In this document: one piece after another, positions 6,687-12,750 of the stretch
Layout: every line of letters starts with the position of its first letter
Position numbering within the stretch: position 1 is the first letter of the stretch
NCBI RefSeq assembly: GCF_007655305.1
Contig: NZ_VLOG01000008.1
Span: 62,001 to 126,000 of the forward strand
Source of the DNA: Algoriphagus algorifonticola
GTDB lineage: Bacteria > Bacteroidota > Bacteroidia > Cytophagales > Cyclobacteriaceae
Direction of reading: 5' to 3'
DNA length: 64,000 nucleotides
The notes under the pieces: model-generated
What the model saw: only the letters and a program-made list of their open reading frames with translations
The model's database searches: none
Told to the model about the DNA's origin: nothing
Position numbers and translations under genes: made by a program

Positions 6687-7955
6687 ATGAAAACATCCCT
6701 TTCTCCCCTAGTTATCATCCTTCTTCTTCTATCTTTCTGTAGTCCCAAAGAAGAAACGAAAACAGAATTCTGGGTTGACCAGACCGTCAAAAATCGAATT
6801 GACTCTACACTCAATAGCTTTGTGGAGTCTGGAAATGTAGCAGGAATTTCAGCCTTGGTTTATGAAAAAGGCGAGGAAGTCTATTTCAACGCCTTTGGGT
6901 ATGCTGATAGAGAAGCTGGTGTTCCTATGGACAGAAACACCATCGTGAAAATATATTCCATGACCAAGCCTGTCACTGGAGTAGCTTTGATGTCTCTGTA
7001 TGAAGAAGGAAAGTTTCAGTTGGATGATCCGCTTGAAATGTATTTACCGGAATTTTCAGATATGAAGGTTTATCAAGGGGTTGAAAAAGATGGAAAAATG
7101 ATTTTGGTTGATGCAGAAAGACCTATCAGCATCAGGGATATAACCCGTCATACTGCAGGCTTTCCAAATAGAAATGATATCCCAGGACTTAGTGAGGTCA
7201 TGGCTGAAAAAGATGCGAGAAGTTTTAATAATACCCTAGCCAGTATGGCTCAAAAAATGGGTAGCACACCTTTATGGTTTCACCCGGGAACCCAGTGGGA
7301 ATACGGCCTTTCTGTGGATGTGCAGGCATATTTGGTAGAAAAAATAGCAGGAGTTCCATACAAGGAATATGTTCAACAAACTATTCTGGATCCCCTGGGA
7401 ATGAATGAAACACAATATTACGTCCCTGAAAATCTCAGAAATAGAGTGGCCGCAATGTATAATCGAACTGGAGAAGGTCAATTGGAAAGAATAGTGGACT
7501 CTGTAGCTCATGAATTTAATTTCAATGAATGGCCACTGACTCCAGGAGGTTTTGGATTGACGAGTACATTGGACGATTACATGAAATTTGCTCAGATGCT
7601 GGTAAATAATGGAAGCTACAAAGGGGTACAAATCCTAGAACCAGAGACGATCAAATTGATGAGTACTGACCACTTACCAGATTCAATTACTGAGAAATCT
7701 TGGCTTCCAAGCAAAGGAAATGTAGGGTTTGGGATTGATTTTGCAGTAAGAAAAGCGCCACCTTCCGATGAAAAGGAAAATAATGGGGTGGTAGGAGAAT
7801 TCTTCTGGGACGGAGCTGCAAGTACCCTGTTTTGGGTAGATCCTGTCAATGAAATAACCGCAGTGCTATTTGTGCAACTTTTCCCGTATGATGGAATCGG
7901 TTTACACAAAAAGTTCAGAGATGCAGTTTACGGGTCATATAAAGCCCCGAATTAA
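6687..7955 (+). CDS. Serine hydrolase lipoprotein (beta-lactamase/class C fold)
   Basis: Exported serine hydrolase of the beta-lactamase-related (PF00144) group, which includes esterases and D-amino-acid peptidases. The signal peptide ends in a lipobox LLSFC (Cys18). The nucleophile motif S-x-x-K is S91-M-T-K94 in IYSMTKPVTG. The usual Y-x-N/S tyrosine motif is represented by EYGLSVDV, which lacks the Asn. VGEFFWDGAASTLFWVDP covers the region of the third (K/H)-x-G motif as WDGAAS. The substrate cannot be read from sequence and true beta-lactamase activity is not implied. It lies just upstream of the his promoter and is not part of that operon. Confidence 0.85.
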   Translation: MKTSLSPLVIILLLLSFCSPKEETKTEFWVDQTVKNRIDSTLNSFVESGNVAGISALVYEKGEEVYFNAFGYADREAGVPMDRNTIVKIYSMTKPVTGVALMSLYEEGKFQLDDPLEMYLPEFSDMKVYQGVEKDGKMILVDAERPISIRDITRHTAGFPNRNDIPGLSEVMAEKDARSFNNTLASMAQKMGSTPLWFHPGTQWEYGLSVDVQAYLVEKIAGVPYKEYVQQTILDPLGMNETQYYVPENLRNRVAAMYNRTGEGQLERIVDSVAHEFNFNEWPLTPGGFGLTSTLDDYMKFAQMLVNNGSYKGVQILEPETIKLMSTDHLPDSITEKSWLPSKGNVGFGIDFAVRKAPPSDEKENNGVVGEFFWDGAASTLFWVDPVNEITAVLFVQLFPYDGIGLHKKFRDAVYGSYKAPN

Positions 7956-7982: not shown

Positions 7983-8013
7983 TTTGGATGTTTTAATTCC
8001 GTGCTTAACTTTG
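7983..8013 (+). promoter_or_regulatory. his operon promoter, complete -33/-7 match
   Basis: TTTG (7983-7986), 19 bases, then TAACTTTG (8006-8013). This is a full match to the Bacteroidota consensus TTTG-N(17-23)-TAnnTTTG. Transcription should begin near 8018, only about five bases before the leader-peptide ATG at 8023, which independently supports the leader ORF. Confidence 0.7.
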
Positions 8014-8022
8014 CCATTAGAA

Positions 8023-8106
8023 ATGAACATCCAAACCACATATTTTACTTTTAGAGCAGCAGGCCACATGAGCCATTTGTTGCATCATTTCCATCATTCC
8101 TCTTGA
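8023..8106 (+). CDS. hisL: his operon leader peptide (27 aa, His-rich)
   Basis: A 27-residue ORF directly behind the his promoter, ending in HMSHLLHHFHHSS. Six of the last 13 residues are histidine (codons at 8065, 8074, 8083, 8086, 8092 and 8095), and four of them fall within 15 bases just before the stop. Histidine-codon clusters immediately upstream of hisG are the hallmark of ribosome-mediated attenuation: low charged tRNA-His stalls the ribosome and changes folding of the leader RNA. The stop codon (8104-8106) sits inside a perfect stem, and a strong hairpin follows at 8132. The predicted 5' UTR is only about five bases, so translation may be near-leaderless. Confidence 0.82.
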   Translation: MNIQTTYFTFRAAGHMSHLLHHFHHSS

Positions 8107-8113
8107 GAGGAAT
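8096..8113 (+). promoter_or_regulatory. Leader stem spanning the hisL stop codon
   Basis: ATTCCTCT (8096-8103) and AGAGGAAT (8106-8113) are perfect complements around the stop codon. Because the loop must open by at least one pair, a 7-bp stem with a four-base loop is realistic. A ribosome finishing the leader would cover it, whereas one stalled on the histidine codons could leave it free, so it may be a switching or pausing element. Confidence 0.5.
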
Positions 8114-8131
8114 TATTTTACACACCCACCC

Positions 8132-8165
8132 GGTGACGCCGATGACAGGGATTCGGCCTTTCACC
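8132..8165 (+). terminator. Probable his attenuator hairpin
   Basis: GGTGA-c-GCCGA (8132-8142) pairs with TCGGC-ctt-TCACC (8153-8165) around a ten-base loop, giving two 5-bp helices with a small bulge. It is 25 bases after the leader stop and 45 bases before hisG. The following bases AAAATTTATTAC are A/T-rich but not a classical T-run, so intrinsic termination is inferred and I could not identify the antiterminator with confidence. Confidence 0.5.
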
Positions 8166-8209
8166 AAAATTTATTACAAGCCTTTTATTTCTTAGCTTAA
8201 CTTGCTACC

Positions 8210-9070
8210 ATGGAAAAAATTATCCGTATTGCCGTTCAAAAAAGCGGTAGACTTTCAGACGATTCATTAAGCCTCATCAAAGAATGTGGCATCAAATTTT
8301 ACAATGGAACGGGGAAACTCAAGTCCACATCCACCAACTTTCCGATCGAATTCCTCTTTTTAAGAGATGACGATATTCCAGGGTATGTTGCCGATGGAGT
8401 TGCTGATTTGGGAATCGTCGGGGAAAACGAATTAGTAGAAAAAGACAAAGACGTCACTACCCTAAAAAAATTAGGATTCTCAAAGTGTAGACTTTCCTTG
8501 GCCATCCCAAAAGGTCAGGAGTATTCCGGAATAGCATATTTTCAAGGGAAAAACATTGCCACATCTTATCCTAAAATTCTTGGAGATTACCTTGAATCCA
8601 AAAATATTCAGGCATCTATCCATGAAATTTCCGGTTCAGTGGAAATTGCTCCAAGTATAGGTTTGGCAGAAGGAATTTGTGATATCGTCAGTTCAGGTTC
8701 CACTTTGATGATGAACGGTCTGAAAGAAGTGGAAGAAATATTCAGATCAGAGGCAGTTTTGATTGCCAATAAAGACCTGGAAGAATCCAAAAAGCAAATC
8801 GTAGACAAATTGCTTTTCCGAATGAATGCAGTTCAAAAAGGAAAAAGCAATAAATATGTGCTTTTGAATGCTCCAAACGAGTCTTTGGATAAAATTGTCA
8901 GCTTGATCCCGGGAATGAGAAGTCCTACCATACTTCCTTTAGCTCAAGAAGGTTGGTCATCCGTACATTCTGTATTGAATGAGGATCAATTTTGGGAAAA
9001 TATCGAGGAATTACGTGCCGCTGGTGCAGAGGGAATCTTAGTTGTCCCAATTGAAAAAATGGTGATTTAA
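8210..9070 (+). CDS. hisG: ATP phosphoribosyltransferase, long form
   Basis: First enzyme of histidine synthesis, joining ATP and PRPP to N1-phosphoribosyl-ATP. At 286 residues it is the long (HisG_L) form, so no HisZ partner is needed. The N-terminal catalytic part has VQKSGRLSDDSL and the PRPP-binding loop DIVSSGSTL. The last ~75 residues (from about KYVLLNAP to VVPIEKM) are the ACT-like domain that gives feedback inhibition by histidine. Transcription is expected from the promoter at 7983 through the leader, so this gene would be controlled both by attenuation and by product inhibition. Confidence 0.96.
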   Translation: MEKIIRIAVQKSGRLSDDSLSLIKECGIKFYNGTGKLKSTSTNFPIEFLFLRDDDIPGYVADGVADLGIVGENELVEKDKDVTTLKKLGFSKCRLSLAIPKGQEYSGIAYFQGKNIATSYPKILGDYLESKNIQASIHEISGSVEIAPSIGLAEGICDIVSSGSTLMMNGLKEVEEIFRSEAVLIANKDLEESKKQIVDKLLFRMNAVQKGKSNKYVLLNAPNESLDKIVSLIPGMRSPTILPLAQEGWSSVHSVLNEDQFWENIEELRAAGAEGILVVPIEKMVI

Positions 9071-9091: not shown

Positions 9092-10387
9092 ATGAAAATA
9101 TTGGTCAATCCTGGTCCATCTTCTTGGAAAAAAGAACTTGCCAGACCGGTTTTTAAAACCAAAGAAATCAATAAAATCGTCAAGCCTATCCTAAGAAAGG
9201 TAAAACGAAGTGGAGACAAATCTCTCTATAAGTTCGCACATGAATACGATCATGTTGATCTGGATTCTTTATTGGTAGATGATACAGAAATAAAAGCAGC
9301 TGCTGCTGCCTTGGCGCCAGAGCTCAGAGAAGCTATACAAACCGCAAAAGCCAATATTGAACGCTTTCATGCTGCACAATTCAACCCTGAATTAGTAGAG
9401 GAAGTAATGCCAGGCGTGATTTGTAAAAGAAAAAGCGTTCCTATTCAAAAAGTTGGCCTATATATCCCAGGAGGAACAGCACCCCTATTTAGTACAGTTC
9501 TCATGTTGGGAGTACCGGCTAAATTAGCTGGCTGTAAAGAAATAGTGTTGTGCACCCCTCCTAATCGAGAAGGAAAAGTGCATCCGGCTATACTCTTTAC
9601 CGCCGAACTGATAGGTATTGATAAAATTGTAAAGGTAGGCGGAGCTCAAGCGATTGCTGCCTTAACTTTTGGCACAGAATCAGTGCCGGCTGTTGATAAA
9701 ATATTTGGTCCAGGAAATCAATTTGTTACCGCAGCCAAACAATTGGCGACCAAATACGGAGTTGCCATAGATATGCCTGCCGGCCCCTCTGAGGTATTGG
9801 TTTATGCTGACGAATCTGCTATTCCAGCCTTTGTTGCAGCTGATTTACTATCTCAGGCTGAGCACGGCGTAGATTCTCAGGTGGTTTTGGTAACTCATTC
9901 CGAGAAGTTTGCCAAAAAAGTCTTGAAGGAAGTTGACTCTCAGTTGGGAGATTTGTCCCGAAAAGATATTGCTAAAAAAGCTCTCAACAATTCAGTTGCT
10001 GTGGTACTGGATGATCAGGAAAGTGCATTGGCGTTAATTAATGCCTACGCTCCTGAGCATTTAATCATTGCTGTTGAAAATGAAGAAGAAGTAGTTGCAG
10101 GAATTGTCAATGCAGGATCTGTATTTATTGGGAATTACACACCAGAATCTGCAGGTGATTATGCCAGTGGCACCAACCACACACTGCCTACCTATGGCTA
10201 TGCCAAAAACTACAGCGGTGTCTCCTTGGATAGTTTCGTGAAAAAAATAACCTATCAAAAGATTACCGAAGAAGGATTAAAAAACCTTGGGCCTACAGTG
10301 GAGATTATGGCTGCTAATGAGTTGCTTGATGCTCACAAAAATGCCGTAACTATTCGTCTTAACTATTTGAAAAAGAATAAACTATGA
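9092..10387 (+). CDS. hisD: Histidinol dehydrogenase
   Basis: Zinc enzyme that oxidises L-histidinol to L-histidine in two NAD-dependent steps, the last reactions of the pathway. The 431 residues match the family. The signature KVGGAQAIAALTFGTESVP followed by DKIFGPGNQFVTAAK is intact, as are DMPAGPSEVLV, DLLSQAEHG and the C-terminal SGTNHTLPTYGYA block that contributes zinc and substrate ligands. It begins 21 bases after hisG and overlaps hisC by four bases (ATGA), so translation of hisC is probably coupled to it. Confidence 0.97.
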   Translation: MKILVNPGPSSWKKELARPVFKTKEINKIVKPILRKVKRSGDKSLYKFAHEYDHVDLDSLLVDDTEIKAAAAALAPELREAIQTAKANIERFHAAQFNPELVEEVMPGVICKRKSVPIQKVGLYIPGGTAPLFSTVLMLGVPAKLAGCKEIVLCTPPNREGKVHPAILFTAELIGIDKIVKVGGAQAIAALTFGTESVPAVDKIFGPGNQFVTAAKQLATKYGVAIDMPAGPSEVLVYADESAIPAFVAADLLSQAEHGVDSQVVLVTHSEKFAKKVLKEVDSQLGDLSRKDIAKKALNNSVAVVLDDQESALALINAYAPEHLIIAVENEEEVVAGIVNAGSVFIGNYTPESAGDYASGTNHTLPTYGYAKNYSGVSLDSFVKKITYQKITEEGLKNLGPTVEIMAANELLDAHKNAVTIRLNYLKKNKL

Positions 10388-11436
10388 GTTTTGACTTAAA
10401 CTCACTTTTAAGGCCGCATATTGTAAATTTACAGCCTTACACTTCGGCTCGTGACGAGTATACAGGCAAGGAAGGAGTCTTTTTGGATGCGAATGAAAAT
10501 CCTTACGGGTCTATAACGGATCAGGATTTCAACCGATATCCAGATCCTTACCAATCTGAACTGAAAGAGAAGATAGCTGCTATTAAAGATGTAAAACCAA
10601 GTCAGATTTTCTTGGGAAATGGGTCAGATGAAGCTATTGATTTGCTTTTTAGGGCCTTTTGTAATCCCGGAGTGGACAATGTAATCCTTTTGCCCCCTAC
10701 CTATGGAATGTATGAAGTTAGCGCTTCAATCAATGATGTAGCAGTTAAAAAAGTACCATTAACGACTGACTTCCAGTTGCAGACTGATTTGATTTTCGAA
10801 GCTATCAATGATAAAACGAAAATAATTTTTGTCTGTAGCCCGAATAATCCAAGTGGTAATAAGGTGAAAAGGTCAGATGTACTTCTGCTTCTCAAACACT
10901 TCAAGGGCTTGGTTGTAGTGGACGAGGCTTATATTGACTTCAATGATGAACCGAGTTTTACCAATCATTTGAAGGATTTCCCGAACCTCCTGGTCATGCA
11001 GACCTTTTCCAAGGCATGGGGTTTAGCTTCTTTAAGAATTGGAATGGCATTCGCTTCAGAGCAACTGATCAAAATCCTTAACAGAATTAAGCCTCCTTAT
11101 AATATTTCAGGACTAACTCAGGATACTGTCCTTGCTGCAATTGATAAGCAGGAAAAGGTGGAATCCATGATCCAAAAAATATTAGATGAAAGGGACTTTC
11201 TTGAAAAGCACTTATTGGAAATTGATGCAGTTCAAAAAATCCATCCCTCTCAAGCAAACTTCCTTCTTGTAAAAGTACCTGCAGCCAATCAGGTGTACGA
11301 GCAATTGATCGAAAATAAAATAATTGTGAGGAATCGCGCAAAGGTTCAACTTTGCGAGAATTGCCTACGGATTTCTGTTGGAACCAGGGATGAAAACAAA
11401 GCCTTTATCAAGGCCTTGAAAGCCATATTAGATTAA
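10384..11436 (+). CDS. hisC: Histidinol-phosphate aminotransferase
   Basis: PLP-dependent class I/II aminotransferase that converts imidazole-acetol phosphate to histidinol phosphate with glutamate as donor. DANENPYG near the N-terminus and NGSDEAIDLL are the substrate and PLP phosphate regions. CSPNNPSGN carries the conserved Asn, VVDEAYIDF the Asp and Tyr, and TFSKAWGLASLRIG the Schiff-base lysine. The 350 residues fit HisC. The start overlaps the hisD stop by four bases. Between this gene and hisB lies an unusual 216-base duplicated segment. Confidence 0.96.
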   Translation: MSFDLNSLLRPHIVNLQPYTSARDEYTGKEGVFLDANENPYGSITDQDFNRYPDPYQSELKEKIAAIKDVKPSQIFLGNGSDEAIDLLFRAFCNPGVDNVILLPPTYGMYEVSASINDVAVKKVPLTTDFQLQTDLIFEAINDKTKIIFVCSPNNPSGNKVKRSDVLLLLKHFKGLVVVDEAYIDFNDEPSFTNHLKDFPNLLVMQTFSKAWGLASLRIGMAFASEQLIKILNRIKPPYNISGLTQDTVLAAIDKQEKVESMIQKILDERDFLEKHLLEIDAVQKIHPSQANFLLVKVPAANQVYEQLIENKIIVRNRAKVQLCENCLRISVGTRDENKAFIKALKAILD

Positions 11437-11652: not shown

Positions 11653-12750
11653 ATGAAAAAGAAAGTATTGTTTATAGATCGTGATGGAACCATCATCAAG
11701 GAGCCACCTACTGATTTTCAGGTAGATAGTTTAGAGAAATTAGAATTTATCCCCAAAGCGATCTCAAACTTAAGAAAAATAGCAGAGGAGACTGATTATG
11801 AATTGGTTATGGTCACCAATCAAGATGGATTGGGTACCGATTCATTTCCTGAAAAGGACTTTTGGCCAGCTCAATTTAAAATGTTGAAGACTTTAGAGCA
11901 GGAAAATATTTTCTTCAAGGCCATTCATATTGACAAGACATTTGAGCATGAGAATGCACCAACCCGAAAGCCTCGAACAGGCCTGTTAACCGAATATTTT
12001 TCTGAGGAATACGATCTGGCTAATTCCTATGTAATTGGGGATCGATTAACCGATGTTCAATTGGCGGAAAACCTAGGAGCTAAAGCTATTTTCATTGGAA
12101 AAGAGCAGGAAAAAGTAGCCTTAAGCACGGAAAATTGGGATGAAATCTATGAATTCCTGAAAATGCCATCTAGGTCTGCAGAAGTAAAAAGAAAGACTTC
12201 AGAAACAGATATTTTGATTCGTCTGAATTTAGATGGCAGCGGGAAATGCGATATCTCCACTGGCCTTCATTTCTTTGATCACATGCTAGAGCAACTCGGA
12301 AAACATGGATCCACGGACTTGGAAATCAAGGTGAAAGGAGATCTTCACATCGATGAACATCATACCATAGAAGATACGGCTTTAGCTTTAGGCGAGGCTT
12401 ATTTAAAGGCTTTGGGCGATAAAAAAGGCATTTATCGATATGGCTTTCTCTTACCTATGGATGATGCTTTGGCTCAGGTGGCCATTGATTTTGGTGGAAG
12501 ACCTTGGATTGTTTGGGATGCGGAATTCAAAAGAGAAAAGGTCGGAGACATGCCGACAGAGCTCTTTTATCATTTCTTCAAATCATTTTCAGATACCTCT
12601 AAGTGTAATCTAAATATCAAGGTTGAAGGAGATAATGAGCACCATAAAATTGAGGCAATTTTCAAAGGATTGGCCCGAGCTATCAAAATGGCAGTGACAA
12701 GAGATCCTAGAAATATCAATCAATTACCAAGTACTAAAGGGGTTTTGTAG
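11653..12750 (+). CDS. hisB: Bifunctional histidinol-phosphatase / imidazoleglycerol-phosphate dehydratase
   Basis: Fused enzyme for two histidine steps. Residues about 1-170 are the HAD-type histidinol phosphatase, with [10 protein letters not shown] as motif I, VTNQDG as motif II and [14 protein letters not shown] as the C-terminal acidic motif. Residues about 175-365 are the imidazoleglycerol-phosphate dehydratase, with [30 protein letters not shown] and [17 protein letters not shown] providing the manganese-binding His/Glu pairs. Fusion occurs in enterobacteria and many Bacteroidota. The gene is followed by a terminator at 12771 rather than by hisHAFI. Confidence 0.97.

Follow-up and report, generated by a model that had tools for sequence, protein, structure and literature searches.

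Amino-acid attenuation, in its textbook form, is a choice between two RNA hairpins, one of which has a run of U at its end. The region upstream of hisG in Algoriphagus algorifonticola raises the question of how a His-rich leader peptide could control a his operon when no such run follows the hairpin before the gene. We have analysed a stretch of 64,000 nucleotides, which is called the window below. The host genome belongs to the Algoriphagus group, and its best named match is A. ornithinivorans (L112), with HisG 99% identical.

The leader locus and its conservation in relatives

On the forward strand, the order is promoter, leader ORF, hairpin P2, hairpin P3 and hisG-hisD-hisC-hisB. These elements, together with the two strands of a helix (P0) and a conserved block before hisG, are as follows.

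7983-8013, + strand: leader promoter of sigma-A type, TTTG-N19-TAACTTTG (TTTG at 7983-7986 and TAACTTTG at 8006-8013, 19 bases apart)
8020-8026, + strand: P0 5' strand, which includes the AUG of the leader ORF; its partner is 8085-8091, in a helix of 7 bp and -7.0 kcal/mol for the window's sequence
8023-8106, + strand: His-rich leader ORF of 27 codons with six His and a TGA stop, from sequence reading and relatives
8085-8091, + strand: P0 3' strand, within the His codons, from pairing energy and the swap test described below
8096-8113, + strand: P2, hairpin enclosing the leader stop codon (stem 8096-8102:8107-8113; cognate z -7.6)
8132-8165, + strand: P3, hairpin in two parts whose loop is conserved and which no T-run follows (8132-8136:8161-8165, inner stem 8138-8142:8153-8157)
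8189-8205, + strand: conserved block ending 4 nt before hisG, a candidate leaderless promoter; 8198-8205, TAACTTGC, matches TAnnTTGY (SM5)
8210-9070, + strand: hisG (NCBIfam TIGR00070 and TIGR03455, above cut-offs)
9092-10387, + strand: hisD (NCBIfam TIGR00069, above cut-off)
10384-11436, + strand: hisC (NCBIfam TIGR01141, above cut-off)
11653-12750, + strand: bifunctional hisB (NCBIfam NF003937, above cut-off)

A preliminary description of this DNA had placed the promoter, the 27-codon ORF, the six His codons within its last 13 and both hairpins, and its coordinates proved right to the base. The His codons start at 8065, 8074, 8083, 8086, 8092 and 8095, and the distance from the leader stop to hisG is 103 nt. 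Between the promoter box and the leader ATG there are 9 nt; taking the box as -12 to -5, following PMC9723704, the predicted transcript would start at about 8018, leaving roughly 5 nt of 5' UTR. A two-element promoter with an ATG 2-13 nt downstream occurs once in the 64-kb window, at the leader. Compared with chance, the fold of the leader RNA (8019-8212) scores z -3.4, and the peptide has no match in NCBIfam. Upstream of the locus, 6687-7955 encodes a serine hydrolase of the class C beta-lactamase/AmpH/esterase type; the 25 matches listed, of 43 in total, all fall short of the curated cut-off.

The following upstream regions have been used for the comparison with relatives: 190 regions in sets of 30, 80 and 80, the last being named loci (80 kept of 129 confirmed). 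In the family, hisG is present in 183 genomes, and upstream regions were fetched for 110 of these, picked down the identity list. After merging identical stretches and dropping N-rich ones, 155 distinct regions were obtained, and no leader was assigned in six of them. They form three groups, namely Algoriphagus-type (41), sister genera (35) and the remainder. A short frame with at least four His in 13 codons was found before hisG in 140 of the 155 regions, against 1/155 for antisense and 2.6% for shuffles, and at least five His in 13 codons in 102/155, against 0.3% of shuffles. Of 149 leaders, 132 have a TAnnTTTG box no more than 30 nt from the leader start, at 6-10 nt in 115 of these 132, and leader length is 27 codons in 71/132. 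The preliminary description had called the frame a His-codon leader of the his operon and had suggested searching for it in relatives; the ORF and its His codons turned out to be conserved there. Judged by this conservation, the short frame is a genuine His leader belonging to the his operon, and it very probably responds to histidine by sensing its shortage. A T-run of four to seven inside the ORF, around codons 8-12, also recurs in the aligned leaders (uncounted).

Terminators and antiterminators in two forms of the leader

The sequence after P3 is AAAATTTATT, without a T-run. To all sets of leaders alike we applied one terminator criterion, a hairpin of -11 kcal/mol or stronger directly before TTTT. 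It selected 1/136 leaders of the window's form (0/41 Algoriphagus-type, 1/35 sister genera and 0/60 others), all 14 T-run leaders of the family and 24 of 29 class-wide hisG loci. The class-wide loci come from a class-level sample in which hisG is present in 36 of 80 genomes, and a frame with at least three clustered His is seen in 27 of the 29 loci read (L269 also belongs to the family set, and the start of L265 is doubtful). An example of the T-run terminator is GGGCTTACTTAACAGTAAGCCCTTTTTT in L274. Within the family, this classic T-run form is found in 14 of the 110 genomes read, whose HisG is 60-65% identical to that of the window. Because of its wide spread, we infer that the T-run form is the older one. 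Two loci from other families of the class, L270 and L292, have his leaders resembling the window's form.

These counts bear out the earlier remark that the second hairpin lacks a proper T-run, which is true in the window and in relatives of the same form (135/136). Since other members of the family and class do carry a classic T-run terminator, the suggestion that the mechanism differs from the classic one is also supported.

Pairing was assessed by a swap test, in which the energies of each leader's own strands (cognate) are compared with those of strands swapped among leaders. Energies were used because alignment on the stop codon shifts register between rows. The test removes relatedness only partly, and its controls range from z -2.4 to +2.3; L017, a doubtful leader, was excluded from the swap tests, and leaders beyond the length limits were excluded from the P0 tests. 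For a positive control, 37 T-run leaders were chosen by eye, leaving out six of the 29 class loci (L265, L269, L270, L280, L282 and L292). Their terminator stem gave z -9.4, and an antiterminator signal was obtained at T-86 to -66 (z -2.6, p 0.0075; next segment z -1.9; 18 segments tested). The swap test is thus able to see an antiterminator.

Across 47 thinned leaders of the window's form, pairing between the P2 3' arm and the stretch from 14 to 56 nt past the stop was worse than in the swapped controls (z +2.5 to +3.7). This counts against the view of the preliminary description, in which an antiterminator merely awaited a name. Since there is no T-run and the P2 3' arm pairs worse than swapped strands, we consider that the locus probably has no classic terminator/antiterminator switch. 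A competitor strand upstream of P3, seen as CGCCC:GGGC in single sequences, was tried and rejected; it did not rise above shuffles in 84 assessed leaders (mean p 0.50, 0.63 and 0.57), and 44 further leaders gave no usable hairpin.

Helices and conserved blocks between the leader start and hisG

In the window's form, P2 has a cognate z of -7.6 (47 thinned leaders), which becomes -5.1 under stronger thinning (n=34); its stem segment in the window folds at z -3.0, and P2-like pairing is weaker in the T-run leaders (z -2.7, p 0.006). The preliminary description had regarded a stem over the stop codon as an uncommon layout. Such a stem is not uncommon in itself, as in the E. coli trp leader strands 1 and 2 flank the stop codon.

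Helix P0 joins the start codon to the His codons. Its cognate z is -5.3 in 47 thinned leaders of the window's form and -4.0 with stronger thinning (n=31). The same helix emerges independently from RNAalifold: for the Algoriphagus group it is ATGGAAA:TTTCCAT (p 0.85), for the sister genera ATGAACAG:CTGTTCAT (p 1.00), the letters being read off the alignment in both cases. Within Algoriphagus alone P0 is not significant (z -0.8), and the minimum free energy fold of the window's own sequence pairs the AUG segment elsewhere, in competition with P0. In T-run leaders the helix gives z +0.3 (n=34), though a short AUG-CAU pairing is present in 32 of the 34. An inner hairpin of the ORF gave z -2.5 in sister genera, +1.3 in Algoriphagus and -0.9 overall.

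Support for P3 consists of the swap test on a segment over its region (cognate z -4.7, 47 thinned leaders) and a pairing count in 31 Algoriphagus leaders, where 91.0% of cells are paired, against 22-56% when the strands are slid. The P3 segment in the window folds at only z -1.8, and changes on both sides are found in 2 of 10 pairs, which is not above column shuffles (231/500). The 10-nt loop of P3, TGAYAGGGAT (8143-8152 in the window), is nearly unchanged in most Algoriphagus leaders, beyond what a hairpin needs. On the covariation proposed as a check in the preliminary description, the tree-based pairwise test, run on 41 and on 35 sequences, left every canonical pair at E of 1 or more; the swapped-strand energies support P2 and P0.

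Downstream of P3, TAnnTTGY precedes the start of hisG by exactly 4 nt in 32/41 Algoriphagus-type, 22/35 sister-genera and 3/79 remaining regions, and at 3 nt in one more. The same pattern has been described as SM5 of Flavobacterium psychrophilum, likely an alternative-sigma motif at -12 to -5 (PMC9723704). If the box is taken as -12 to -5, transcription would begin at the A of the hisG AUG. No -33 element is conserved upstream of the block, and genome-wide the hisG-type TAnnTTGY block has about as many matches as reversed-pattern controls; the arrangement is not a general feature in the genomes searched. The block may be a bypass promoter for a leaderless hisG transcript, or something else.

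A repeat, ACATATCGCC, is present about 15 nt after the leader stop in 35/35 sister-genera leaders (at least 7 of 10 matches), 7/41 Algoriphagus-type and 20/48 others. A weaker copy lies in the ORF (13/41 Algoriphagus-type, 21/35 sister genera and 20/48 others), mostly in one reading frame, and may therefore reflect the peptide. The repeat was absent from 12 T-run leaders, and no complement to it was found. The 11-mer ACATATCGCCC has 20 matches in 8 genomes, against 4 for the reversed control; six of the 20 are his leaders, and no leader-like context was seen at the other 14. L134 (A. pacificus) bridges the ACATATCGCC form and the window's P3 form.

A possible mechanism and its relation to known systems

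We tentatively propose that the leader senses histidine and is read out by ribosome occupancy, without a terminator/antiterminator switch, a reading to which we give somewhat less than an even chance. When His-tRNA is plentiful, the first ribosome would run off, P0 would shut the leader's own start, and P2 would close over the stop. Transcription of the ribosome-free RNA would then stop ahead of hisG or soon after its start, with no T-run involved, and Rho would be the likeliest agent. When His-tRNA is scarce, a ribosome halted on the final four His codons (8083-8097) would cover the P0 3' strand and the P2 5' arm; the start would stay open, further ribosomes would load, and polymerase would continue into hisG. 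The footprint of a ribosome reaches about 18 nt upstream and 14 nt downstream of the first base in its A site, and with the A site at 8083-8095 it spans the P0 3' strand and part or all of the P2 5' arm. Among 132 leaders of the window's form, 110 have their last clustered His two residues ahead of the stop, so that a stalled ribosome would cover the P0 and P2 strands, and on this ground occupancy is proposed as the signal.

That Rho is the terminator is a suggestion which we hold with a little less than even confidence. A leader ORF with a putative stall site and no intrinsic terminator, as Rho-dependent leader attenuation requires, is present. Rho loads on RNA that is rich in C and poor in G. 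The C/G ratio of the RNA after the leader stop, uncorrected for relatedness, is 1.35 in Algoriphagus, 1.86 in diverse others and only 1.11 in sister genera (p 0.095), T-run leaders giving 0.99. Rho is encoded in the genome (G000:C31:2939-4702, L293), by a frame of 630 aa which, compared with the 415-position model, contains extra sequence.

A wider form of the proposal is an attenuator class without a switch. In this class the control codons would be a structural strand locking the leader start, the His codon CAU being complementary to AUG; the second hairpin would lock the stop; a stalled ribosome would keep the start open and the RNA covered in a self-sustaining manner; and the TAnnTTGY promoter would serve as a leaderless bypass. 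Taken as a whole, this wider form is rather doubtful.

Two other readings place the decision in a hairpin terminator. Classic attenuation, with P2 as the 1:2 pause hairpin, P3 as a T-run-free terminator for this polymerase and a poorly conserved 2:3 antiterminator, would agree with the classic order of leader, P2, P3 and hisG and with the retention of P3 pairing in Algoriphagus (91.0% of cells), but the P2 3' arm avoids pairing downstream, no competitor of P3 rose above shuffles in the 84 assessed leaders, and T-runs are absent here while relatives keep theirs; we regard it as unlikely. P2 may instead be a weak intrinsic terminator, the folding of which is prevented by a ribosome stalled on the His codons. 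In a looser terminator scan of the window's form, P2 alone passes, with its T-rich tail, in the window, 7/41 Algoriphagus-type and 23/35 sister-genera leaders (30/76). This reading is slightly less likely still in our judgement, as P2 has only 3-4 G-C pairs and reaches at most -7.9 kcal/mol in the Algoriphagus group, the T-rich tail is absent in many other leaders of the window's form, and a coupled ribosome would presumably be too near the polymerase.

Control of translation appears less probable again. If a leader-dependent fold concealed the hisG start, pairing to that start would be expected, and the P2 3' arm does give z -2.9 (p 0.004) there; this is one of about 30 segments, with a weak energy (-3.1 vs -2.5), and we treat it as a multiple-testing outlier. 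As no other pairing to the hisG start appeared in the swap test and the RNA between P2 and hisG barely exceeds shuffles in structure (mean z -0.3 to -0.9), translational attenuation is improbable. It is hardly credible that the short frame senses nothing and merely aids hisG translation by re-initiation: such a role has been proposed generally where leader and gene lie 10-16 bp apart (PMC4833913), but here stop and hisG are 103 nt apart, and the His enrichment is specific (140/155 vs 1/155 antisense).

The occupancy reading can be set beside several known systems. A structured 5' element before hisG has been described in F. psychrophilum and other Flavobacteriaceae, with no Rfam entry according to its authors, who suggest leader-peptide attenuation for amino-acid operons (PMC9723704); it shares gene and phylum with the present leader, a likeness taken from the published description. 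In B. thetaiotaomicron, sORFs reminiscent of leader peptides have been reported (PMC7366714). The His leader of hisS/hisZ in bacilli also has a peptide with His codons, but it belongs to another phylum and other genes and was found via intrinsic terminators; before the bacilli cases, its authors knew no leader-peptide system outside Proteobacteria and Actinobacteria (PMC2965389). In the portions of the open-access literature covered, which did not extend to a 2010 comparative attenuation study cited in PMC4833913, we found no description of this form of his leader in Cyclobacteriaceae.

In the Rho-dependent leader ORFs tnaC and toiL, as they have been described, a ribosome stalled on a short ORF decides the access of Rho, as proposed here. 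They differ in sensing free tryptophan or antibiotics, toiL works via a ribosome-binding site, and a role of Rho at the present locus is our inference. The enterobacterial his attenuator (Rfam His_leader) has in common with this leader a His-rich peptide before hisG, a hairpin by the stop and the his operon downstream. Differences are that the leader in the window has no Rfam match, no T-run and no detectable antiterminator, and that its start is paired with the His codons.

A further comparison is with the T-run his leaders of other Bacteroidia (e.g. L274 and L285), which share the His-rich leader before hisG and, in many cases, the TAnnTTTG promoter. They differ in having a hairpin of 10-14 bp with a T-run and an antiterminator signal, and in lacking P0. 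One lineage appears to keep the His-codon sensor but neither the U-run terminator nor the antiterminator, both of which persist elsewhere in its family and class. Since the sensor is kept before the same gene while the U-run switch is apparently absent in one lineage, the two designs can be compared directly. In a phylum that, by published accounts, lacks Shine-Dalgarno sequences (PMC6847099), the leader would also offer a case in which the locking of a start codon by control codons can be tested.
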